64,000 bases of DNA from a virus. The notes under the pieces were generated by a model. The model had not been told where the DNA came from, did no database searches, and saw nothing but the letters and a program-made list of their open reading frames with translations. Made by a program: the position numbers and the translations under genes. Shown in pieces: positions 2,956 through 51,917 of this stretch (its first letter is position 1; each line of letters opens with the position of its first letter). The stretch is taken from positions 51,478-115,477 of the IMG/VR virus record IMGVR_UViG_3300006931_000002; one strand, given 5' to 3'.

Positions 2956-3241
2956 CCGTCTGTCGGCGTCGATCCGCCGCACCCACACCGTGTTCGAGGT
3001 GGGACGTCGGATCGGTCGTCTGATCGTCGCTTCGGTGCGTCTTGGCTGGCGTGCCGAGAAAGGTTCGACGGTGACCGGGGTGACGGTCGTCGCGTCGTCG
3101 TCGCAGGCGGAGACGCTTCTCTACAGCCTGGACTTGGCGCCGCGGCCGATTTCCAGGGCTGTGGAGATCGAGACTGAACGCGGCTGGGAAATGATCGGCC
3201 TGGACGCCCCGGACACGGCCGACGGGGTGTGGGATGTCTGA
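2948..3241 (+). CDS. hypothetical protein
   Basis: 97 residues, GTG start 8 bp inside the preceding gene. The N-terminus is basic (RLSASIRRTHTVFEVGRRIG) with a hydrophobic stretch that is too short and charged for a clear membrane span. Function unknown. It overlaps the next gene by 8 bp. Confidence 0.65.
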   Translation: MSDRLSASIRRTHTVFEVGRRIGRLIVASVRLGWRAEKGSTVTGVTVVASSSQAETLLYSLDLAPRPISRAVEIETERGWEMIGLDAPDTADGVWDV

Positions 3242-3458
3242 CGGCCCGCGCATCGAGTGGGGTCACCGTCTCGCCGCGGACTTCCCGGGCCGGGAGCGGA
3301 TGCGGGACCGCGACCGGATTCACGCCTGCCTCGACGAGCATGGCCGTCCGAATCGAGTGCCGTGCGCCAACCCGGATGTGATGGGCTATCCCATGGATCA
3401 TGTCTGGCGTCTGGTCACCGGCTGGCAGACCGGGCCGGTTCCGGAATGGAGACCCTGA
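3234..3458 (+). CDS. small EWGHR-motif protein (copy 1)
   Basis: 74 residues, ATG start overlapping the upstream gene. It contains RIEWGHR near the start and DHVWRLVTGWQ near the end. The next gene has the same two blocks (RVEWGHR and VHVWRRRQIGEW), so the two are likely tandem paralogues. Function unknown. Confidence 0.65.
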   Translation: MSDGPRIEWGHRLAADFPGRERMRDRDRIHACLDEHGRPNRVPCANPDVMGYPMDHVWRLVTGWQTGPVPEWRP

Positions 3459-6885: not shown

Positions 6886-7106
6886 ACGGCCCGTCGGTCG
6901 TCGTCATAACCCACACCGCCGGCTCCGACGACTGGGAGGTCCGTGTCCCCGTCCGTATCCCGTCGGCTGCGCTGATCTGGGGTCTTCGGACGCTTCCGTC
7001 CGGGCTGGGGCTGAACACTGCCGGCCCGGACGTCGAGGACGAAGAGGCGTTGCTGTTCCAGTTCACCCGGCTCAACCCGGCCACTGCCCGCGATTCCAAG
7101 GACTAG
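6882..7106 (+). CDS. paralogue of the preceding gene
   Basis: 74 residues from a GTG in a GTGA overlap. It aligns with the core of the 6457-6885 protein (DWEVRV block, then a WGLRTLPSGLGL segment like VRGLSMYLPGGVRL). Function unknown. Confidence 0.7.
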   Translation: MNGPSVVVITHTAGSDDWEVRVPVRIPSAALIWGLRTLPSGLGLNTAGPDVEDEEALLFQFTRLNPATARDSKD

Positions 7107-7146
7107 CGTCCCGCCGATCCCACACGCTTCACGGGGAGACACACGT

Positions 7147-8133
7147 GTGCCACCGTCCGCCCGCACCGGACAGGAGATGTCCTTGGACCACACCGACCGC
7201 CGCCGCATCCTCACCGCTGGGATTCTCCTCCCGGTGGGCCTCTTGACCGCCGGAGGAACAGTCGGCGCCAGCACGACCAGCGTCCGCACCGACATCGACA
7301 CGGGTGTTGCCGGCATAGTCGCCCGCTGGGAGTCGACGAACCTCGTCGACGTCCTCAACGCCACCCACCACTGGGCGTACCTGTGCCGCCAGCTCGGCAG
7401 CAGGGGCCGAGACTGGCAGTTGACCACAGGGCGGGTGGCGCTGCTCTCAGCCCGCGCACATGCCGACCTGGGCGAAACAACCATGGCGCTTGCCGAAGCG
7501 CAGAAAGCCCGGGTTTTGGGCCGGGCCTGCGGCGACACGGCCACCGAAGCCGAAGCGACACTCGTCGCAGCAGAGGTTCATGACGCGGCCACCCCAACGT
7601 CGGCGATCCCCCTACAGATGACACGGGCCGCACGGCGCCGCGCCGGCACATCGTGGCTGGGTGTAGCCGCCGCGTCGATCGAAGCGGCGATCCTCGCACG
7701 GGGAGGACCGGGCTCCGCATCCGACGTGATCGACGTGCTGCGGGACGCGGACACAGCAGCCCGGCTGCTGCCCGAACCGCGACCCGGCGAGTTCAGCCCC
7801 GGCCAGCTTGCCGCGTTCGGCGGCTGTGCTCTGATCCGAGCGGGAAGGCCTGACGAGGCGACGGACCGTCTCTCTGACGCCGTGTTCGACGAGCACGCTG
7901 CTCCGGGGATGGCGTCGGCGGTGCTTGTCTACCGGGCTTCGGCGGCGGTCGCCGGCCGCCGGTTCGATGAGGGTGCGGCGCTTGCCGGGCGGGCGTTGGA
8001 CGTGTCCGCCCAGAGGCCCACTGCATGGCTGGCCGCGTCGGTACGGGGTCAGGCGCAGACGGCAGGCGGTAAGGGCGGGTATGACGCCCTGGTCGGCCGA
8101 CTCGGTGGTTGGCCTGCGGCGGCAACGGTCTGA
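7147..8133 (+). CDS. TPR-like helical repeat protein
   Basis: Up to 328 residues. GTG 7147 has GGGGAG about 9 bases upstream; a TTG at 7183 with its own GGAG is an alternative. A segment after the start, DRRRILTAGILLPVGLL, looks like a signal or membrane anchor. The rest consists of Ala-rich helix pairs typical of tetratricopeptide-type domains found behind actinobacterial HTH regulators (WQLTTGRVALLSARAHADLG, SAVLVYRASAAVAGRRFDEG). No HTH is present, so this may be a truncated or free-standing regulator domain. Confidence 0.7.
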   Translation: MPPSARTGQEMSLDHTDRRRILTAGILLPVGLLTAGGTVGASTTSVRTDIDTGVAGIVARWESTNLVDVLNATHHWAYLCRQLGSRGRDWQLTTGRVALLSARAHADLGETTMALAEAQKARVLGRACGDTATEAEATLVAAEVHDAATPTSAIPLQMTRAARRRAGTSWLGVAAASIEAAILARGGPGSASDVIDVLRDADTAARLLPEPRPGEFSPGQLAAFGGCALIRAGRPDEATDRLSDAVFDEHAAPGMASAVLVYRASAAVAGRRFDEGAALAGRALDVSAQRPTAWLAASVRGQAQTAGGKGGYDALVGRLGGWPAAATV

Positions 8134-11935: not shown

Positions 11936-13447
11936 GTGCAGCCCAAGACCAACCGCGCCCTGAAACGCATCGTCATCTACTGCCGCATCTCCCAGGACCG
12001 CACAGGCGCGGGACTGGGCGTCGAACGGCAAGACGCCGCATGCAGGGAACTGCTCGCCCGGCTCGGCTTCACAGAGGCAGAGATCGCCGCCGCCGTGGTA
12101 CTCATCGACAACGACATGTCTGCGACCAGGCGTCGCAAACCCCGGCCTGGCTATCGGCGCCTGCTCGAAGGGCTGCGGCAGCGCCAGTGGGATGTCCTCG
12201 CCACCTTGCACAACGACCGGCTGCTTCGGAACAACCGGGAGCTGGAAGACTTCATCGCCGTCGTCGAAGCGAACCCGCTGCGGATCGTCACCGTCCTTGC
12301 CGGCGAGTATGACCTGGCGACGGCGACGGGCAGGATGACAGCCCGCATCGTGGGCGCGGTCGCACAGAAGGAAGCCGAGCAGGAAGCCGAACGGCTTCGG
12401 GAGCAGAGAAGGCAGGCAGCCGAGATGGGGCGGCTACATGGCGGCCGGCGACCGTTCGGCTGGGGTGCAGAAGTCGGCAAAGGTACAGACGGGGCGCCGC
12501 TGATTGACCGGTCGCGGCCACATCCACTGGAGGCGTCGCTGATCCGCGAGGCGGCGGTGGATGTGCTTCACTCCGGGACAACGTGGGGTGCGGTCGCCCG
12601 GCGCTGGAACCAGGCCGATGTTCTGACCCCGTTCGGCAACCGGTGGACCGGGCAGACGGTGATGCAGACCTTGACCGCGCCCCGGCACGCCGGCCTGACC
12701 ATCATCAGACCAGACGATCCGGACGGAGCCGTCACCTACGGCCACGCCAAGACGTCAATCATCACTCCAGAGCAGCATCATGCGCTGGTCGAGTTGACCC
12801 GCGTGCCAGCTCGTCGGGCGATCACACCCCGCGGCCGGGTTCATCTGCTGTCGGGGATCGCGCGCTGCGGCGCTGAGAACTGTGAGATGCCTGTCCAGGT
12901 TGCCGGCACCGATCGGGCTGGCCGTCCGGTGTATGGCTGTGGGGGACGCCGCCCAGGGATTCCGCATCGTGGGCATGCGAACCGGCCGACGGCTCTGGTA
13001 GAGGAAGCGGTGACCCGGCTGGTCTGTGCTCGGCTGGCTCGCTCAGATGCGGTGATGTTGCTGACACCTGACGACGGCCCGGCGAAGATCGCGGCGGAGG
13101 AGGCTCGGCAAGTACGGGAACGACGGAAAAGGGCCGCAGCGCGGTGGATGCTGGGCGAGTTGGACGACGACGAGTGGGCCGCGGTGAAGGCCGAGGCTGA
13201 CCCGCTGTTGGCTGATTTGGAGCGGCGGGCCGCCCCACCGCCTGCCGCGCTGATCTTTGAGGGGCTTGTCGGCTTGGGATCGCTGGGGGCGACGCGGAAG
13301 GCGTGGGACGCGATCGGCGACTTGGACCGTCGCCGGACGGTTGTGGACGCGCTGCTGTGGATCACGATCCTGCCGACTGGACGGTGGGGTGTGGCCTCGA
13401 CTGACGGCGGCTCGGCGGCGTGGCTGCGGTACGGCTGGAAGCTTTGA
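11936..13447 (+). CDS. large serine recombinase (integrase)
   Basis: 503 residues, GTG start. Residues 11-150 are the resolvase-type catalytic domain with the nucleophile in YCRISQDRTG (Ser19) and DRLLRNNRELEDF. The long helix E and recombinase domain follow (GRRPFGWG, then TWGAVARRWNQADVLTPFGN). A zinc-ribbon region comes next (SGIARCGAENCEMPVQV, Cys pair later lost or variable), then a charged coiled coil near 385-420. Such enzymes integrate phage DNA between attP and attB. A strong dyad 14 bases past the stop is the likely attP. Confidence 0.93.
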   Translation: MQPKTNRALKRIVIYCRISQDRTGAGLGVERQDAACRELLARLGFTEAEIAAAVVLIDNDMSATRRRKPRPGYRRLLEGLRQRQWDVLATLHNDRLLRNNRELEDFIAVVEANPLRIVTVLAGEYDLATATGRMTARIVGAVAQKEAEQEAERLREQRRQAAEMGRLHGGRRPFGWGAEVGKGTDGAPLIDRSRPHPLEASLIREAAVDVLHSGTTWGAVARRWNQADVLTPFGNRWTGQTVMQTLTAPRHAGLTIIRPDDPDGAVTYGHAKTSIITPEQHHALVELTRVPARRAITPRGRVHLLSGIARCGAENCEMPVQVAGTDRAGRPVYGCGGRRPGIPHRGHANRPTALVEEAVTRLVCARLARSDAVMLLTPDDGPAKIAAEEARQVRERRKRAAARWMLGELDDDEWAAVKAEADPLLADLERRAAPPPAALIFEGLVGLGSLGATRKAWDAIGDLDRRRTVVDALLWITILPTGRWGVASTDGGSAAWLRYGWKL

Positions 13448-27909: not shown

Positions 27910-28298
27910 GCGCCCGCATACCAGACTCGACCCTCCGCTCCTGTGACCATCCGGGCTGCGAGGCAACCTTCGACGCGGCAGGCAGGGCCGAACCGGGCTG
28001 GGTCCAGGTCCCGTCCCGCAACGACCACTACTGTCCAAAGCACCACGACTCGCCGGTACCCGCAGCAACACGCCGGCTGATCGACCGTCACGGTGCCGAC
28101 TGGAGGACCGACCTTGGCGGCCTTCATCCGGATCTGCTGTGGGACTACGAGGACGTCCGTGACTTCCTGATCGCCTGCCCAACGCCGTCGTTGCTTTGGC
28201 AGCGGGCACTGTTGGAAGCCTTGCGGGTGATGAACGATGAGATCTCTGATCAGGTGGTCTTCGACTTCCTCGATGGCGGCGACGAGGAGCCGCTATGA
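27906..28298 (+). CDS. Cys/His zinc-type protein
   Basis: 130 residues, GTG in a GTGA overlap. CDHPGCEATFDAAGR and HYCPKHHD in the first 50 residues form a plausible zinc finger; an acidic helical domain follows. Not recognised. Confidence 0.65.
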   Translation: MSARIPDSTLRSCDHPGCEATFDAAGRAEPGWVQVPSRNDHYCPKHHDSPVPAATRRLIDRHGADWRTDLGGLHPDLLWDYEDVRDFLIACPTPSLLWQRALLEALRVMNDEISDQVVFDFLDGGDEEPL

Positions 28299-28834
28299 GT
28301 TTGCCTACTCCAGACGCGGCGCCGCGTCCCCTGCCGACCGGTCCCGGCAAGTGCCTGAGCTGTCCGGCCATCGTCCCTGACCGTGGCGTCGACCCGCTGT
28401 GTCGTGACTGTAAGGATGAATGGGCCGCGGAGGCATCGGAGGACAGACCACCTCGCGCGAACTACCTCAACGTGCTCGCCTTGTGGCATCTGAACAACGC
28501 CGCCCCGGCAGTGGAGGCCGCGTTCGGCTCGACACCCTACTTGGTGGGGTCCTGTCTGGACCGCGCGGACTTCCGCGACGTCGACATCCGGGTCCTGTTG
28601 GACGACGACGACTTCGACCGGCTGTTCCCCGGCGTCGACGAGGGGGAGGCCGACCCTCTGTGGTCGCTGCTGTGTGCTACCACGTCGGCCTGGCTTGGTG
28701 GCCTGACCGGACTCCCGGTCGACTTCCAGGTCCAGAGACGCGATCTTGCCAATGCGCGCTATCCGAAACGCCCGCGGCATCCCCTCGGAGTGGTCGGGCT
28801 GTACGCGGGTGGGGGTGATTCCGGTGTCCGCTGA
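28295..28834 (+). CDS. nucleotidyltransferase-like protein
   Basis: 179 residues, ATGA overlap. An N-terminal Cys set (CLSCPAIVPD and CRDCKDEW) precedes a minimal nucleotidyltransferase core. That core is YLVGSCLDRADFRDVDIRVL (the GS loop and the D-x-D metal ligands) with a third carboxylate in LPVDFQVQRR. Substrate unknown; members of this fold modify RNA, proteins or antibiotics. Its nearness to the RNA ligase makes RNA end-processing one option. Confidence 0.75.
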   Translation: MSLPTPDAAPRPLPTGPGKCLSCPAIVPDRGVDPLCRDCKDEWAAEASEDRPPRANYLNVLALWHLNNAAPAVEAAFGSTPYLVGSCLDRADFRDVDIRVLLDDDDFDRLFPGVDEGEADPLWSLLCATTSAWLGGLTGLPVDFQVQRRDLANARYPKRPRHPLGVVGLYAGGGDSGVR

Positions 28835-29054
28835 CCCGCCACCTCCTTGGGGCCGTGCCTCGTGGGCTCGCCCTCGTGGGCTGTGCTCTGCCTGTGCTAC
28901 CTCCCGGGCTCTCACCCAGGAAGGCCTCATCCACTGGCACAACGCCCCGGGTGGTCATGGCCGTGGATGGCGTCCGGACGGGATAACGCCGGGCGCGACC
29001 TGTGTAGGGGCTGGACGCCCACCACATGTAGAGGCCAAGGGGGAGGCGCCGTGA
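28824..29054 (+). CDS. hypothetical Pro/Gly-rich protein
   Basis: 76 residues from GTG 28824, overlapping the previous gene by 11 bp. CSACATSR near residue 22; otherwise Pro/Gly/Arg rich. Low information content, so weaker than its neighbours. Confidence 0.5.
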   Translation: MSADPPPPWGRASWARPRGLCSACATSRALTQEGLIHWHNAPGGHGRGWRPDGITPGATCVGAGRPPHVEAKGEAP

Positions 29055-29353
29055 ACGAGCGCGACGAGGCGACGTTGCGGAACCTTCCGCAGATCCTCGA
29101 AGGCATCCTGATCTTGCACCGGGCCACCAACCCCAATCCATACGCCGAACTTGACATCCGAGTAGAAGACGGCCCGCTCGCCGGGCAGGTCATCCACAAC
29201 GACGGCTCGTACTGGCAGGGCGACTACTGGCATCCCGAGGTCGACGGGATCGGGCACCGCTACGTCCTCGGAACCCGGCTGGCCGGCGGTCGTGAGCCTG
29301 AGCCGTTGTGGTTCTACAAGGGCGTGCGACCAGACGACGGCCGGACGATCTGA
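29051..29353 (+). CDS. hypothetical protein, last gene before the recombinase cassette
   Basis: 100 residues, GTG in a GTGA overlap. N-terminal helix then beta-rich part (AELDIRVEDGPLAGQVIHND). Not recognised. Confidence 0.65.
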   Translation: MNERDEATLRNLPQILEGILILHRATNPNPYAELDIRVEDGPLAGQVIHNDGSYWQGDYWHPEVDGIGHRYVLGTRLAGGREPEPLWFYKGVRPDDGRTI

Positions 29354-29387
29354 CCAATATCGGCTTTTGCAAAACAGGCACCGGGTT

Positions 29388-29406
29388 AGGAGTTCGGGCC
29401 CGACTC
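29388..29406. terminator. hairpin before the recombinase gene
   Basis: GGAGTTCGGGCCCGACTCC forms a 6-bp stem around a 7-base GC loop. It lies between the end of the early operon and the recombinase gene, in a 112-base gap that is more AT-rich than its surroundings. Termination of the operon is the simplest reading. Confidence 0.4.
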
Positions 29407-29465
29407 CCCCACCAACATCGACTAGCGATATCCGTAAATTCCCAGTACCAGGGGAGCGATCTTCA

Positions 29466-30488
29466 ATGGACCTTGAACAGGCCGGTGGCGGAGCACTCGT
29501 ACCCGTGGCGACATCCCTCGCCGAGATCCACGAGGCGCTCGACGAGCAGGCGAGGGCGTACGCCGCGCGATCGATCACGGCCAGTACTCGGCGGGCCTAC
29601 GAAACGGATTGGTCACTGTTCGTTGACTGGTGTGCGCGGCAGCACTTTCAGCCGCTACCTGCCACGCCCGAGACCGTCTACCGATACATCGCAGACCTAG
29701 CTGCTGGCACGACCGGCGGCCAACCCATGAAGACGTCAACCATTCTGCGGCGCGTCTCATCGATCTCCGTTATCCACAAGTCCGCCGGCTACAACTCCCC
29801 CACCGCCGACCGTGCCGTGCAGACAGTCCTCAAAGGTGTCAAGCGACGCCCAGGCCGGGAGCACCGCCCGGTTGCCAAGACCGCGGCAACCACAGCGATC
29901 GTTCGCCGCATCGTGGCCGGCATCGGTACCGAGACGCCCGTGGACATCCGTGACCGGGCGATCATCCTTATCGGATTTCCCAGCGCGCTCCGACGGTCCG
30001 AACTCACAGCACTCGACATCCCGGATCTCGTTGACTCGGGTGGCGAACTGCTGGTCTACATCGCGTCGTCGAAGACCGACCAGGAGGGCGAAGGCCTATG
30101 GCTTGGCATCCCGTCGGGCAGTCGAGCTGAGACCGACCCTGTACGGGCGTGGAACGCATGGCGCGAACTCGCCGCTGCGGCAGGTGACCCTGACGGCCCG
30201 GCGTTCCGCCCGGTCGGCCGCTCAGGGAAGGTCCTCCCCCGGCGCCTTTCGGATCAGTCCGTCGCGCTCATCGTGAAGCGCCGCGCGCTCGCGGCAGGGC
30301 TGAGCGCCGACGAGTTCGCCGCCCACTCTCTACGCTCTGGGTTCGCCACAAGCGCCGCAGAAGCGGGCGCCGAAGAACGAGAGATCATGCGCCAAGGCCG
30401 GTGGCGGTCAGTCCAGATGGCCCGTCGCTATGTCCAGCGCGGGAAGGCGCTCGACAAGAACAACCCGGCGCGGAAGCTCGGCCTTTAG
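29466..30488 (+). CDS. tyrosine recombinase (intact)
   Basis: 340 residues, ATG with GGGGAG upstream. The N-terminal SAM-like core-binding domain (residues 20-105) is followed by the catalytic domain with all expected residues: R176 in SALRRSELTAL, K203 in SSKTD, H287 and R290 in AHSLRSGFATS, W313 in GRWRS, and Y322 in RRYVQRG. It should cut and join DNA at specific sites. It begins a cassette with an endonuclease VII gene and a second, degenerate recombinase. A serine integrase is already present at 11.9 kb, so its job is probably not phage integration. Confidence 0.92.
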   Translation: MDLEQAGGGALVPVATSLAEIHEALDEQARAYAARSITASTRRAYETDWSLFVDWCARQHFQPLPATPETVYRYIADLAAGTTGGQPMKTSTILRRVSSISVIHKSAGYNSPTADRAVQTVLKGVKRRPGREHRPVAKTAATTAIVRRIVAGIGTETPVDIRDRAIILIGFPSALRRSELTALDIPDLVDSGGELLVYIASSKTDQEGEGLWLGIPSGSRAETDPVRAWNAWRELAAAAGDPDGPAFRPVGRSGKVLPRRLSDQSVALIVKRRALAAGLSADEFAAHSLRSGFATSAAEAGAEEREIMRQGRWRSVQMARRYVQRGKALDKNNPARKLGL

Positions 30489-30523
30489 GTATGTCGCACC
30501 CGCCTGACCAGCGAATCTAGTCG

Positions 30524-30529
30524 TATAAT
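30524..30529 (+). promoter_or_regulatory. TATAAT -10 element of a leaderless gene
   Basis: TATAAT ends six bases before ATG 30536, with no ribosome site between. This is the best -10 match in the window and should give a leaderless message for the endonuclease gene. Confidence 0.6.
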
Positions 30530-30535
30530 CAACCT

Positions 30536-31165
30536 ATGCCGCAATGTGGCCGCACGAATCGCGAACGGACCGGCAGGTGTACGGAAGAGTGTGCGCGCGC
30601 GAGTCGTGGATCTCCTCCGACATACATCGCGCCTGCCTGCGCCATGCACATGAACGCAACAGAGTTGCGCGCGCTCGTAGCGGCCGAGAAGAGTGCCACC
30701 GTCGCGAGGCGAGCCCACGAACGCGAACGTCGCATTGCCGCGCGTCTCGCTGGATGGCCCCAGCCGCCCGATCCGGCCTGCTGGTCATGGGAGATAACAG
30801 CCGAAGACCGTGAAGAGGTAGCCCGGCTCGGTGTGGACGCACTTGCCCGTTGGCAGGTCGACCAGTGTGGCGCATGCGGCGACTGGAGCACCTGGGTTGA
30901 GGACCACGATCATGAGACGGGTTACACGCGCGGCATGCTCTGCCGGAGATGCAACGGAATAGAACCCGGAGCCGAGCCGGGAAGCCTGCTCCACAAATGG
31001 CGCACGCGCTCAGCCGCGACACTGTTCGGACTGTCGGAGACGTACATCGACCCATTCACCCGTCACGCTGGACCAACTCGGCCGCGGGCGACAGACCTCA
31101 CCCGGCACCCCACCTACGCAATCACGAGCCTCATCGGCGCACAGACCACCCCGGAGACCCGATGA
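30536..31165 (+). CDS. recombination endonuclease VII-type HNH protein
   Basis: 209 residues, leaderless ATG. Residues 111-141 hold the endonuclease VII core: C111 and C114 in QCGACGDW, DHDHETGYTRGMLC with the catalytic His pair (124, 126), and C136, C139 and N140 in CRRCNG. T4 gp49-like enzymes of this family cut branched DNA; phage copies often behave as mobile HNH genes. The N-terminal 100 residues are basic and helical. The C-terminal RHPTYAITSLIGA resembles SHPTYALATVLDE at the end of the next gene's product. It overlaps that gene by 4 bp. Confidence 0.88.
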   Translation: MPQCGRTNRERTGRCTEECARASRGSPPTYIAPACAMHMNATELRALVAAEKSATVARRAHERERRIAARLAGWPQPPDPACWSWEITAEDREEVARLGVDALARWQVDQCGACGDWSTWVEDHDHETGYTRGMLCRRCNGIEPGAEPGSLLHKWRTRSAATLFGLSETYIDPFTRHAGPTRPRATDLTRHPTYAITSLIGAQTTPETR

Positions 31166-32052
31166 CCGCCAACGCCCTCTCAGAGGATCCCGAGGGTGCC
31201 GCACCCTGGCCGTCCATCCTCGACCAGTACCTCGCCAGGTATGCCCCGGCTACACGGTCGGGCTACAGTCGCGATCTGGCGGACTGGACCGAGTGGTGCG
31301 CCGACCTCGATGTTCCACCACTCGATGCCCAGCGCACCCACGTAGATCTGTGGGTCCGTCATCTCGCCGAGAACCTCGGCCGCGGGCAGTCAACCATCCA
31401 CCGCAAACTTGCTGCGGTTGCTGGCGCCTACCGGTGTGCCGTGGCCGAGACGCTCATTGAGGCCTCTCCCGTCGACCATGCCCGCCGTCCACACTTGGAC
31501 GATCAGTCGTCAACCGTGGGGCTGACGAGAGAGCAGGTTGCCAAGTTGCGGGCGGTCGCGAAGGCCGATGGACCACGGTCCCGTGCGCTCATCGATGTAC
31601 TTGTCTTCAACGGGCTCCAGATCTCGGAGGCCCTCTCGATACGAATCGAGGACGTGCAGGATGAGGGCGGCCACAAGGTGGCCACCATCGCACGAAGGGG
31701 TGGGCGGACGCGGCCCGCCCCCCTTGCACCGGTGGTCTTTGAGTCGTTCCAGCAGTGCGCTGCCGGACGTACCGAAGGTCCACTGTTTGGAGATCTCGAC
31801 CGACACAACGCCTACACGCTCGTGGTGCGCCTTGCCCGCCGCGCCGGGTTTCGCGTTACCCCGCAGGGACTTCGCTGCACTTGGGTGGTCCTCTCCCGTG
31901 AGGCCGGGGTCCCGTTGGAGGATGTGCAAGACGCCGCTGGCCATGCAGATCCGAGGACGACGCGTCGATACGACCGGGTGCGGCGCAGTCTTGAAAGTCA
32001 TCCAACATACGCGCTTGCAACGGTGCTCGATGAAGTCACACCCACCTCCTGA
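31162..32052 (+). CDS. tyrosine recombinase with degenerate active site
   Basis: 296 residues, ATGA overlap with the endonuclease gene. The fold is clear: a SAM-like domain at 20-105, then FNGLQISEALSIRIEDV, VTPQGLRCTW, AAGHADPRTTRRYDR with Y270. Two catalytic positions are changed: the first Arg is Gln153 (GLQISE instead of GLRISE) and the His of HxxR is Gln235 (QGLR). R238, H261 and Y270 remain. It may be inactive or act as a DNA-binding partner of the intact recombinase. Confidence 0.85.
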   Translation: MTANALSEDPEGAAPWPSILDQYLARYAPATRSGYSRDLADWTEWCADLDVPPLDAQRTHVDLWVRHLAENLGRGQSTIHRKLAAVAGAYRCAVAETLIEASPVDHARRPHLDDQSSTVGLTREQVAKLRAVAKADGPRSRALIDVLVFNGLQISEALSIRIEDVQDEGGHKVATIARRGGRTRPAPLAPVVFESFQQCAAGRTEGPLFGDLDRHNAYTLVVRLARRAGFRVTPQGLRCTWVVLSREAGVPLEDVQDAAGHADPRTTRRYDRVRRSLESHPTYALATVLDEVTPTS

Positions 32053-32070
32053 CCTGCACTGACGCCGCAA

Positions 32071-32076
32071 TAGAAT
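32071..32076 (+). promoter_or_regulatory. TAGAAT -10 element of a leaderless gene
   Basis: TAGAAT ends seven bases before GTG 32084, with no ribosome site. CTGACC about 15 bases further upstream may be the -35. Confidence 0.55.
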
Positions 32077-32083
32077 CGGGTCT

Positions 32084-32812
32084 GTGACGGTCCTCGACCC
32101 CGTGGCGGAAGAGATTCGCGGTCTGCTGTGGGACTTTTACCGCTCCTACAAGCCGACCGGCGACAACGACGACGGCGAGGACACGCCGCTCGCGTTCCGC
32201 CTGTACCACCAGTTCGGGACACCGCTACAGGGTGACGATGTGGCGATCCGGAAGGCGAAGCCGCACTCGCAGGCTCCGGGTGACATCCCGGCGTTGTCGT
32301 TGGCGGAGAAGGTCCGCGAAGAGGTCATCTACTGGGCTGGCAAGCTGCATCCGGTGCAGGGCTTCGGCAAGACGGAGCCAACCTTCGTCTGGGCGTTGGA
32401 GAACCTTGCCGACCTGTCGACGGGTCATCCGTTCGGCGAAGAGGTGCTGGCCGATTTCCGATCGCTACGCGCCCAAGCACTGATCATGTTGCGGTTTGAG
32501 CGTGCCCCGGTTCCGATCCGCTCCCCCGGTGCCCGCTGTGGGGTGTGCGGAAACAGAACACTGGTCCAGGACCCGAAGTCGGGAGACGTGTACTGCTCGA
32601 TGGGCGGCCCGGAGGGGTGCCACGATGATCAGCAGTGGCCTTCATGCCGCGCCCTGTGTTCGGGCTGCGCAGACCGGCGTGACCCTGCCTGCCCGGTCTG
32701 CTGGGGGCAGCTTCCGTTGGTGCTGTGCCGTCGTTCGGAACGGTCGATGCGCCATGCGTGGCGGGTCGGGCATGACCGTCTGCACGAGCTGACCCAGTGG
32801 GGGGCCGCATGA
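32084..32812 (+). CDS. Cys-rich hypothetical protein
   Basis: 242 residues, leaderless GTG. N-terminal 130 residues helical, ending LRFERAPVPIRSPG. The C-terminal third has three Cys groups (CGVCGNRTL, CRALCSGCADR, CPVCWGQL), likely zinc sites. First gene of the rightward cluster after the recombinase cassette. Not recognised. Confidence 0.7.
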   Translation: MTVLDPVAEEIRGLLWDFYRSYKPTGDNDDGEDTPLAFRLYHQFGTPLQGDDVAIRKAKPHSQAPGDIPALSLAEKVREEVIYWAGKLHPVQGFGKTEPTFVWALENLADLSTGHPFGEEVLADFRSLRAQALIMLRFERAPVPIRSPGARCGVCGNRTLVQDPKSGDVYCSMGGPEGCHDDQQWPSCRALCSGCADRRDPACPVCWGQLPLVLCRRSERSMRHAWRVGHDRLHELTQWGAA

Positions 32813-46840: not shown

Positions 46841-48112
46841 GTGGCCGAGGATACGTGCGAAGTCGAAGGCTGTATCGGCACGGGCCGGATCACGCGCGGC
46901 ATGTGTTCCAAGCACTACCAGCGGTGGCGGGCCACCGGCACCACCGATCTGATCTCCGGCAGGGTTGAGCGCCCGTGCGCGGTCGACGACTGTGATCGAC
47001 CGTTCCGGACCCGGGACTTGTGCGCGATGCACTACGCGCGGCTAATCAACTACGGGTCAACGGAGGACCCGCGCAACAGGCCAAAGCCGACCTGCGCGGC
47101 CGAAGAGCCCTGCAACAAGACCGCTACCGCTGGCGGATTGTGTGGTACGCACTACGCCCGGCGGCGCAAGCATGGGACCACGGCGGCGCTCCCCAAGAAG
47201 CCGATCCGGACCGAGTCCCCCTGCTCGGTTGAGGGCTGCACGGACCGTGTCCGGTCCAAGGGACTGTGTAACGCCCACTACCAGCAGTGGCGGAAGCCGC
47301 CCAAGCCTGAGCCGGTGCCCTGCGCGGTTGAAGGCTGTCCCGACCCGGCGTCACAAAGGTCTACGCGCGGCCTGTGCAGTACCCATCAGCGCCGGTGGAA
47401 CCAGACCGGCTCGACCGACAAGCCGGTGCGCAAGCGTGCCGAGTGCACGGTAGATGGCTGCACCGAGCCGAACCACTGCCGGGACTTCTGTAAGCGCCAC
47501 TACGAGCGCTGGCGTCGCAGCGGTGACCCGCTCGCCGCGAAGCGTGAGGTACGACGCCCACGGCTGCCTGAAGCGCTCGTGGGCGTTACAGAGAAGACGT
47601 GCTCGCGCTGCAAGGAGGTCCGGGCGCTCGTCGAGTTCAACAAGCGCACCGGCACCCCTGATGGCCTGTCCTACCACTGCAAGTACTGCGCGGCGCGGAT
47701 GCCGTCGGCGACCAAGCAGCGCGAGCGGTACCAGAACGACCCGGAGTTTCGGCGTCGCACCGCCGAACGCCTCAAGGCGATCGAAGCGGGCAAAGGCCCC
47801 GAGTGGAAGCGGCAGCGAAACCGCGAGTCCAAGCTCTGGCACAACTACCGGATGACCCTCACCGAGTTTGACGCGATGTCCGAGGCGCAGGGCCATGTCT
47901 GCCTGATCTGCAAGCGCCCGCCCTACGGCGGTCGGCCCGACGCGCGCAAGCAGTACCTGTCGGTTGACCACGATCACGTGACCGGCAAGATTCGCGGCCT
48001 GCTCTGCGACGGCTGCAACATCTCCATCGGCCACTTCTCCGACGACCCCGAGCGGCTGCGCGCGGCCCTCGCCTACCTGTTGATGCACGCCCCCGAGGCG
48101 GACGCGGCCTGA
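46841..48112 (+). CDS. endonuclease VII fused to a zinc-finger array
   Basis: 423 residues, GTG start with GAGAGG upstream. Residues 1-230 contain six repeats of the form C-x4-C ... LC-xx-HY-xRW (CEVEGCIGTG...MCSKHYQRW; CAVDDCDRPF...LCAMHYARL and so on). A CSRCKEVRALVEFNKRTG unit and YHCKYC follow. The C-terminal part (about 350-405) is the endonuclease VII core: VCLICKRPPYGG, LSVDHDHVTGKIRGLL, CDGCN. The array probably binds specific DNA and guides cutting. It has a private promoter with a LexA box and lies just upstream of the prohead protease gene. Confidence 0.88.
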   Translation: MAEDTCEVEGCIGTGRITRGMCSKHYQRWRATGTTDLISGRVERPCAVDDCDRPFRTRDLCAMHYARLINYGSTEDPRNRPKPTCAAEEPCNKTATAGGLCGTHYARRRKHGTTAALPKKPIRTESPCSVEGCTDRVRSKGLCNAHYQQWRKPPKPEPVPCAVEGCPDPASQRSTRGLCSTHQRRWNQTGSTDKPVRKRAECTVDGCTEPNHCRDFCKRHYERWRRSGDPLAAKREVRRPRLPEALVGVTEKTCSRCKEVRALVEFNKRTGTPDGLSYHCKYCAARMPSATKQRERYQNDPEFRRRTAERLKAIEAGKGPEWKRQRNRESKLWHNYRMTLTEFDAMSEAQGHVCLICKRPPYGGRPDARKQYLSVDHDHVTGKIRGLLCDGCNISIGHFSDDPERLRAALAYLLMHAPEADAA

Positions 48113-50144: not shown

Positions 50145-51917
50145 ATGAGCACCGGCACCCACGGTGACCTCCGCGACCTGTTCGGCGCCGACCTGAGCCC
50201 CGCCGAACTGACCACCGCGGCGGTCAACTACAAGATGGCCGTCGACGCGGCCCCTTCCACAGTGAAGGGCGACGTCGAGGTCGACATCATCACCAAGTCG
50301 CTGCGCCCGACGGTCCGCGGCAACGCCCGCGACGTCCTGACGAAGGCGTATGGCGCGCTCGGCGCTGACCAGAACGCGATGGCCGCCATCGAGGCCGCCG
50401 TGGCGCAACAGCTCGGCTCGGACTTCCTGGCGAAGGACATCACGACCACATCACCGGTTCCCGGCGGCCTGGTTGCCTACGACCTGGAAGCGCCCAGCAA
50501 GATGCTCGCGCCGGTCCTCACCCCGTGGCGGAACAAGTTCCCCCGGAACAAGGGCGTCGGCACGTCCCACCGTTACAAGCGGATCACCGGCATCACCGGT
50601 TCCGGCACAGGTGGAGTGGGTGTCGTCCACCCCGGGTTCACCGACTCGACGCAGGTCAACTTCGCGAACCCGGGTTCGGCGAACTCGCAGTGGGCGAACC
50701 GCCCCCGGAAGATCTCCTACGCGGGTGACGACGTCAACCTGCCGTACGTCCAGTTCGGCCTGTCCGACGAGCAGTCGTGGTTCACCTACTTCACGGCGAT
50801 CGGTTTCCAGGACACCCGTGAACTGTCCCGGCAGTCCACCCTCTACTCGTCGATGATGGTCGAGGAGCGTGTCCTGCTCTACGGCCGCGGCACCCTCGGT
50901 GGCTACTCGGGTGTTCTCGCCGCCCCGACCGGCACCCCGACGGGTGCGGCCCGGACCGCGGCGACCGGTGAGACGGCGCTGACCGGCTTCACGACCAACA
51001 TCTACGTCAAGGTGGTCGCCGAGTCGGGCGAGTTCGGCGTCTCCCAGGTCAGCTCGGCGTCGGCCGGTATCGGAGTCTCCTCTGGCCAGGTCGTCGACAT
51101 CACCATTCCGAACCCGGTCGTCGGCGCCACCGGCTACAAGATCTTCGTGTCGACGGGTGCGTCCGACCCAGGTGATGCGTCGCGCTGGCTGTACCTCGGC
51201 CCGGCGTTCCCGAACAACCAGTCCCTCGGCCGCACCCCCACCCAGACGATCACGTTGCAGGGTGCGCTGCCGACGTCCGGCCAGTCCGTCGCCGCGTTCA
51301 CCTGCACCGACGGCACCGTCGTCAACCTGGCATCGGTCGACGGCCAGTCGGCCCGCTCCGACTCGTACGACGGCGTCATCCCGTGGATTCACGCCCAGGC
51401 GAGCACCACCGGCTATGTCGGCCGGCTCAACGCCCCGTTCTCGACCGCGTCGCCGGGCGCCGAGTTCCAGACGGCGTTCGTCACGACCTACGACGCGACC
51501 CGCGCCGACCCGGAGGAGATCTGGCTCGCCGCCCGCGACCGGGTCCAGATCTCCAACAGCCTCAAGGGCCAGTCGTCGAGCAACTACCGGCTGACCCTGT
51601 CCGAAGACCAGCTGATGAACGTCCGCCTCGGATCGCTCGTCACCGGTATTCAGAACGAGGCCACCGGACGGGTTGTGGACATCAACGTCCACCCCTACCT
51701 GCCGCAGGGCAACGCGGTCATCCTCCAGAACAGCATCACCATTCCCGGGGTGAACGTTCCGAACGCCTGGAATCTGTTCAACACCCAGGACTACATGGCG
51801 ATCGACTGGCCGGTTACCGGAATGTCGTACGATACCTCTGTGTATTGGGCCGGCACTCTGAGTAGCTATGCCCCGGACCGGTCGTCCATGCTGGTGGGAA
51901 TTCAGCCGGCGAGCTGA
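50145..51917 (+). CDS. major capsid protein with inserted domain
   Basis: 590 residues, ATG with AGAAGGGG upstream. HK97-like features: LAKDITTTSPVPGGLVAYDL, FPRNKGVGTSHRYKRITGIT, RQSTLYSSMMVEERVLLYGR, and the C-terminal AARDRVQISNSLKGQSSSNY. Residues about 270-385 form an extra beta domain (NIYVKVVAESGEFGVSQVSS, VVGATGYKIFVSTGASDPGD) of fibronectin-III/Ig type, probably exposed on the capsid surface. The strong position after protease and scaffold supports the call. Confidence 0.93.
   Translation: MSTGTHGDLRDLFGADLSPAELTTAAVNYKMAVDAAPSTVKGDVEVDIITKSLRPTVRGNARDVLTKAYGALGADQNAMAAIEAAVAQQLGSDFLAKDITTTSPVPGGLVAYDLEAPSKMLAPVLTPWRNKFPRNKGVGTSHRYKRITGITGSGTGGVGVVHPGFTDSTQVNFANPGSANSQWANRPRKISYAGDDVNLPYVQFGLSDEQSWFTYFTAIGFQDTRELSRQSTLYSSMMVEERVLLYGRGTLGGYSGVLAAPTGTPTGAARTAATGETALTGFTTNIYVKVVAESGEFGVSQVSSASAGIGVSSGQVVDITIPNPVVGATGYKIFVSTGASDPGDASRWLYLGPAFPNNQSLGRTPTQTITLQGALPTSGQSVAAFTCTDGTVVNLASVDGQSARSDSYDGVIPWIHAQASTTGYVGRLNAPFSTASPGAEFQTAFVTTYDATRADPEEIWLAARDRVQISNSLKGQSSSNYRLTLSEDQLMNVRLGSLVTGIQNEATGRVVDINVHPYLPQGNAVILQNSITIPGVNVPNAWNLFNTQDYMAIDWPVTGMSYDTSVYWAGTLSSYAPDRSSMLVGIQPAS

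Follow-up and report, generated by a model that had tools for sequence, protein, structure and literature searches.

Gene content and flanking elements of the recombinase locus

We analyzed a recombinase locus in a phage genome, the 115,477-bp IMG/VR record IMGVR_UViG_3300006931_000002, of which positions 51478–115477 form the 64,000-nt stretch studied here (the window). Three codirectional open reading frames (ORFs) lie within window positions 29466–32052, each supported by a Pfam match, in agreement with the gene content proposed in an earlier reading of the DNA letters (the original prediction). TyrR1 (29466–30488, plus strand) encodes a Cre-like tyrosine recombinase of 340 amino acids (PF00589, E = 2e-15). 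EndoVII (30536–31165, plus strand) encodes a beta-beta-alpha-metal nuclease of the endonuclease VII family with 209 amino acids (PF02945, E = 2e-8, above the curated cut-off). The third gene, TyrR2 (31162–32052, plus strand), encodes an XerC/D-like recombinase-fold protein of 296 amino acids (PF00589, E = 4e-13), and its start codon overlaps the EndoVII stop codon by 4 nt (ATGA).

TyrR1 had been predicted to be intact, and it carries the PF00589 domain with the complete catalytic set R-K-H-R-W-Y. It matches Cre over most of its length in a PDB search (E about 2e-14). Like Cre of P1 and Dre of D6 it is full-length Cre-like by sequence, and Dre is among its phage matches. In contrast to P1, the window phage has no AAA_31 ParA match and encodes a separate large serine integrase (PF07508, window about 11936–13447), whose presence had been foreseen correctly. 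Because of this integrase, TyrR1 is probably not used for lysogenic integration; a large serine integrase besides a tyrosine recombinase is found in each of G000, G001 and G004. We know of no Cre–EndoVII or Dre–EndoVII pairing in P1 or D6. Cre maintains plasmid prophage P1 as a monomer (PMC2409434).

The assignment of the middle gene as an endonuclease VII-type protein is borne out by the PF02945 match and the conserved catalytic residues: D123-H124-x-H126, N140 and E143 are kept along with two Cys pairs. The catalytic D-H-x-H, R, N and E and the Cys pairs of T4 EndoVII are also present across the subfamily to which this protein belongs, and the subfamily profile matches T4 EndoVII at E = 1e-8. 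Compared with the family at large, the subfamily is set apart by PACWSWP and WQxGRC motifs in its N-terminal region and by its dedicated slot behind a site-specific recombinase gene. The AlphaFold model of the window protein has a pLDDT of 78, and its top Foldseek match is the beta-beta-alpha-Me enzyme Hpy99I at a non-significant E of 1.5. Few relatives are returned by a plain sequence search, but two of these, in the phage-plasmid ZL12 and in a Streptomyces janthinus phage-plasmid, likewise come right after a tyrosine recombinase gene. A second EndoVII-family protein of 423 amino acids, with a C-terminal EndoVII domain (PF02945, E = 2e-23), is encoded at window 46841–48112, a few kb past the portal gene and with no adjoining recombinase. 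Fang et al. noted in a remark that EndoVII-motif genes in four prophage fragments are often close to integrase, portal or other phage genes.

TyrR2 has the recombinase fold proposed for a second tyrosine recombinase, but three catalytic changes set it apart from an ordinary active enzyme. Half of its six catalytic positions are altered (QRQRHY; Arg I to Gln, Lys to Arg and His II to Gln), the beta-hairpin Lys position being occupied by Arg. Since these residues are replaced while three homologs retain R, K and H, TyrR2 alone is probably not an active recombinase. As an alternative more likely than an active enzyme, we infer a partner that binds DNA or has a regulatory role, or else a copy in decay. 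Inactive recombinase-fold partners are known in other systems, such as Tfp in SEs (PMC10214605) and GinC in GInts (PMC5385486).

Promoter-like elements had been predicted inside and after the trio, and both are present. A −10-like TATAAT read from the sequence at 30524–30529 (plus strand) ends 6 nt 5′ of the EndoVII ATG, where it would act as a leaderless-type promoter of that gene. Downstream, CTGACC-16-TAGAAT (32049–32076, plus strand) is the sole sigma70-like match in the region and a promoter-like element of the gene that starts at 32084. The hairpin said to precede the trio is at chance level (z = −0.18 for 29380–29415 and z = +0.82 for 29354–29440). No plus-strand terminator was found in the region, and no known RNA families at the locus. 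Outside the window, the phage genome (G000) has two ORFs that, judged by eye from their N-termini, are TnpB-like (L021 1750–2955) and IS200 TnpA-like (2972–3388) and would make up an IS605-type element.

Comparison with sister phages

Three syntenic relatives were found through the conserved zinc-ribbon-like gene at 32084–32812 (plus strand), which has 80–100% amino acid identity in the relatives and serves as the right-hand anchor of the locus. They are L008 (a 38-kb contig), L004/L009 (115 kb) and L010 (100 kb). The closest, L008, is 99.1% and 96.3% identical to the window left of the locus and 99.7% identical right of it. Between these flanks, window 28533–32048 has been exchanged as a unit, the L008 counterpart being unrelated apart from a distant tyrosine recombinase. 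Between the same conserved neighbors, each relative encodes a single tyrosine recombinase that stops short of the shared promoter at 32049, the right edge of the variable region in all four phages. The amino acid identity of these recombinases to TyrR1 is 65% in L004, 48% in L008 and 35% in L010. TyrR2 is absent from the sisters, as each of the three has a single PF00589 match. The left exchange point relative to L008 falls inside an ORF (window 28295–28834, L008 5452–5994), the C-terminal halves of which differ. In L004, a GIY-YIG nuclease gene (7030–7623, minus strand) lies between the recombinase and the promoter, convergent with the recombinase.

The original prediction had regarded the three genes as a discrete mobile cassette, and this does not hold. 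A search on either side for direct or inverted repeats that could mark the ends of an element gave short, chance-like matches only, no second copy of the three-gene set was found in the phage, and the sisters carry a different, single recombinase. An empty-site counterpart in related phages, named beforehand as what a mobile cassette should have, is found in none of the three relatives. Because every relative has some recombinase at this spot and none has an empty site, we take the locus to be a swap-prone recombinase locus with exchanged contents and no discrete element.

The comparison also provides a weak candidate for a TyrR1 site or operator. A 20-nt block, CAACATCGACTAGCGATATC (29413–29432, plus strand), is identical in the window and L004/L009 and lies 34–53 nt 5′ of the TyrR1 ATG. 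It occurs as a single copy in the searched sequence and has no significant palindrome, and its position agrees with that of sites seen 5′ of related modules (see below). Further upstream, an 81-nt block (window 28965–29045) is 95% identical to L004 amid unalignable surroundings, is not found in L008 or L010, and has no Rfam match; it is possibly regulatory.

Recurrence of the recombinase–EndoVII pair

A profile search with the EndoVII subfamily gave 42 viral and 34 genome loci, most of them on metagenomic contigs of unknown completeness, and all results below come from sequence analysis. Of the 42 viral loci, 34 have a recombinase gene directly 5′ of EndoVII on the same strand, of the tyrosine class in 24 and of the small serine class in 10; after clustering at 70% identity, 26 of 33 clusters have this arrangement. 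The recombinase models used to score adjacency were derived from the loci themselves and subsequently checked with Pfam; whole-contig searches with PF00589 and PF00239 independently agree with the paired recombinases. Two further loci, L070 and L074, have a divergent serine recombinase adjoining EndoVII, and on several module contigs a further recombinase represents the class that is not paired with EndoVII. On the genome contigs, pairing was found in only 5 of 33 scored loci. The immediate-upstream slot is strongly preferred over other slots of the same loci (Fisher p about 1e-30, with the number of other slots estimated and kinship ignored). In a control set of 67 loci from another EndoVII subfamily, none adjoins a recombinase, and a Pfam re-check of 50 control contigs gave few tyrosine recombinases, none adjacent. 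These loci come from other, mostly short contigs, so that the control shows the specificity of the subfamily and is not a matched comparison. The window has the same arrangement, with EndoVII directly 3′ of a recombinase gene on the same strand.

Where the two genes are paired, they are often translationally coupled. An overlap of exactly 4 nt between the recombinase stop and EndoVII start codons is found in every one of the 11 serine pairs and in 18 of 31 tyrosine pairs, counts that are biased toward 4 wherever several starts exist, as start codons were picked nearest to this overlap. In the Streptomyces violaceusniger plasmid pSTRVI02, the recombinase and EndoVII are fused into one protein of 520 amino acids. 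The fusion (L016 2762–4324, WP_014043951.1) is annotated merely as an ‘endonuclease domain-containing protein’.

The partners also vary with respect to each other. L088 and L092 have the EndoVII in common and differ in the recombinase, while L092 and L068 have the recombinase in common and differ in EndoVII. The EndoVII genes of L067 and L029 have 79% nucleotide identity despite the difference in recombinase class, serine in the former and tyrosine in the latter. Overall, recombinase and EndoVII distances are uncorrelated (Mantel r = 0.04), and this lack of co-phylogeny argues for exchange over co-descent. Adjacency does not form one clade on the EndoVII tree either, as it requires 15 changes, at least five of them forced by well-supported branches, compared with 23.6 expected after shuffling; this tree concerns tyrosine pairs only, with serine-paired loci labeled as non-adjacent. 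These comparisons identify exchange of partners at the junction between the two genes with the layout kept.

One explanation for such exchange is that EndoVII is a free-standing homing-type nuclease that cuts EndoVII-less genomes near the recombinase, with repair copying the nuclease and the flanking allele. This would account for the variability of the locus and for the differing nucleases beside the recombinase, EndoVII here and GIY-YIG at the same place in sister L004. It also fits the exchange of block 28533–32048 between near-identical phages, the breakpoints at the recombinase/EndoVII junction, and the finding that EndoVII is optional, missing from the sister genomes and inside the exchanged tract. 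EndoVII-motif homing endonucleases have a precedent in F-CphI (PMC6083498), and where phages have exchanged DNA, the boundaries are marked by nuclease genes (PMC10448857). However, a single conserved target would be expected for homing, whereas this subfamily follows several types of tyrosine recombinase and unrelated serine recombinases. The exact 4-nt coupling and the fusion protein suggest joint function, and the different EndoVII subfamily has no such linkage. Homing is the strongest rival explanation, which explains the exchange but not the coupling to unrelated recombinases, and we consider it possible but unlikely.

Pairing with both recombinase classes bears on a second explanation, namely that EndoVII finishes or redirects the recombinase reaction by cutting its Holliday-junction intermediate, for example by turning a one-strand exchange into a stable product. 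Tyrosine recombinases go through a Holliday junction, which T4 EndoVII is able to cleave, and the tight operon coupling and the fusion would suit such a role. Serine recombinases make no Holliday junction, though, and the same subfamily is paired with them (L067 versus L029), which leaves this explanation improbable. Given its pairing with both classes, EndoVII probably serves genome separation instead of the chemistry of one recombinase.

Recombinase–EndoVII–recombinase-like trios, a gene order that the original prediction suggested looking for elsewhere, recur in Streptomyces phage-plasmids, where the third protein is independent, catalytically dead and on the opposite strand. An opposite-strand recombinase-like gene follows EndoVII in L015, L068, L088 and L092, and partly in L082. 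Its product is truncated and has lost the Lys, the His, the Tyr and the second Arg, and its fold is supported by a weak match of the SAM-like or integrase type. TyrR2 and these proteins belong to different families and have lost different residues. The phage-plasmids ZL12 and the 90-kb linear phage-plasmid of S. janthinus both carry the module with adjacent recombinase and EndoVII genes in the same order as the window, and in each of them the two genes overlap by 4 nt if candidate start codons are used. In contrast to the window, the third gene of the S. janthinus phage-plasmid is on the opposite strand and encodes a TyrR-like protein that is truncated and catalytically dead, while that of ZL12 encodes a codirectional protein of unclear family. 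A check of the ZL12 gene (P0004) as a degenerate recombinase gave only a weak LacI match.

Trios of this kind raise the question of a self-mobilizing multi-recombinase element akin to RIT, GInt and SE elements, with the nuclease as an extra component. In those elements several recombinase genes form one operon with short overlaps, as here (PMC3414803, PMC5385486, PMC10214605), and GInts and SEs contain a recombinase-fold protein without catalytic residues, comparable to TyrR2 and to the product of the third gene in the Streptomyces trios. There is thus precedent for operons of several recombinases that include an inactive partner, EndoVII and TyrR2 are overlapping and codirectional, and trios of an active recombinase, EndoVII and an inactive recombinase-like protein recur. 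The window trio differs in that its middle gene encodes a nuclease, only two genes have the recombinase fold, and it sits at a fixed phage locus without terminal repeats or ends and with no evidence of transposition. The missing empty site and second copy also speak against mobility, as does the different family and strand of the third protein in other trios, making this explanation very unlikely.

The claim of a previously undescribed make-up stands in part. As a mobile element the trio does not hold up, while the combination of a recombinase with a Holliday-junction-type nuclease is recurrent and apparently undescribed. No published description of the pair was found in open PMC text.

Candidate sites and the proposed role of the module

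Candidate recombination sites were found upstream of related modules. Within 700 bp 5′ of the tyrosine recombinase, 9 of 24 modules have dif/lox-like palindromes of the form ATAA-N6-8-TTAT compared with 0.2 expected from shuffling, and their density is 0.56 per kb upstream versus 0.024 downstream; the enrichment is exploratory, since the ATAA/TTAT core was picked after the first matches were seen. L075, L034 and L015 have dif-like palindromes, and L063 has a perfect lox-like site with 13-8-13 geometry, a short palindromic site near the gene as in Cre-loxP. Four related serine modules have a common res-like palindrome about 185 bp upstream. In L067, L085, L086 and L097, conserved palindromes containing TGTCCA/TTGGAC are repeated 5′ of the serine recombinase, like a multi-subsite res site. 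ZL12 has an intergenic 34-bp near-perfect palindrome, CCAACCCCGGAAATCCAAGGATTCCCGGGGTTGG, 5′ of its recombinase (L011 5030–5063), a candidate site or terminator.

We propose with moderate confidence that the recombinase and EndoVII form a module for phage-genome monomerization, in which EndoVII clears branched DNA. The window would then hold a local version of this module in the swap-prone locus of a phage family of about 115 kb. TyrR1 would most likely act at a short site close to where it is encoded and keep the genome monomeric by resolving dimers or concatemers. EndoVII would most likely be an accessory nuclease that cuts Holliday junctions or branched DNA between sister genomes, arising from replication and homologous recombination, and its cutting would let recombination end in separate, unbranched monomers. 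Both the monomer resolution and the branch cutting are roles that we infer from sequence.

Several observations count against this proposal. The window copy is an atypical member: the TyrR1–EndoVII gap is +47 nt with no overlap, EndoVII is preceded by its own promoter-like box, and it is coupled to TyrR2 instead. EndoVII of the recombinase-linked subfamily is absent from all three sister phages and from all of about 26 other members of the closest TyrR1 clade. A reciprocal search from this clade gave no further EndoVII, so that the dependence is one-sided, and the clade and the sisters suggest that TyrR1 is able to work alone. Unlike for Cre and Dre, no lox-like palindrome above shuffles was found around TyrR1, although an imperfect or distant site may exist, and the upstream palindromes of the related modules could be operators instead of recombination sites. 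Of the 47 records of modules or sisters, only 7 have an AAA_31-family ParA, so that most are not shown to be phage-plasmids. The open junction, the promoter-like box and the lack of EndoVII in the rest of the TyrR1 clade would also be expected if TyrR1 were the resident gene and EndoVII and TyrR2 were unrelated morons that landed beside it by chance in one phage. However, the recombinase-linked subfamily includes the EndoVII of the window, and the nearest relative of this protein by identity, in L064, also follows a tyrosine recombinase, which makes a chance association very unlikely.

Taking the wider set of loci together, we tentatively suggest that a dedicated EndoVII branch is a recombinase partner independent of recombination chemistry, forming exchangeable monomer-resolution modules in actinobacterial phages and phage-plasmids, some with a dead recombinase-fold protein as a site-binding regulator. 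Resolution systems are usually viewed as a recombinase and its site, sometimes with architectural helper proteins. If the suggestion is correct, a nuclease that follows both recombinase classes, coupled to them and in one case naturally fused, would represent a helper of a new type, and a concrete function could be given to an EndoVII branch whose members mostly bear the annotation hypothetical or ‘endonuclease domain’. The upstream palindromes would be leads to new Cre-lox-like tools, and the module would bear on the way in which large phage genomes, circular or concatemeric, are cleanly separated.

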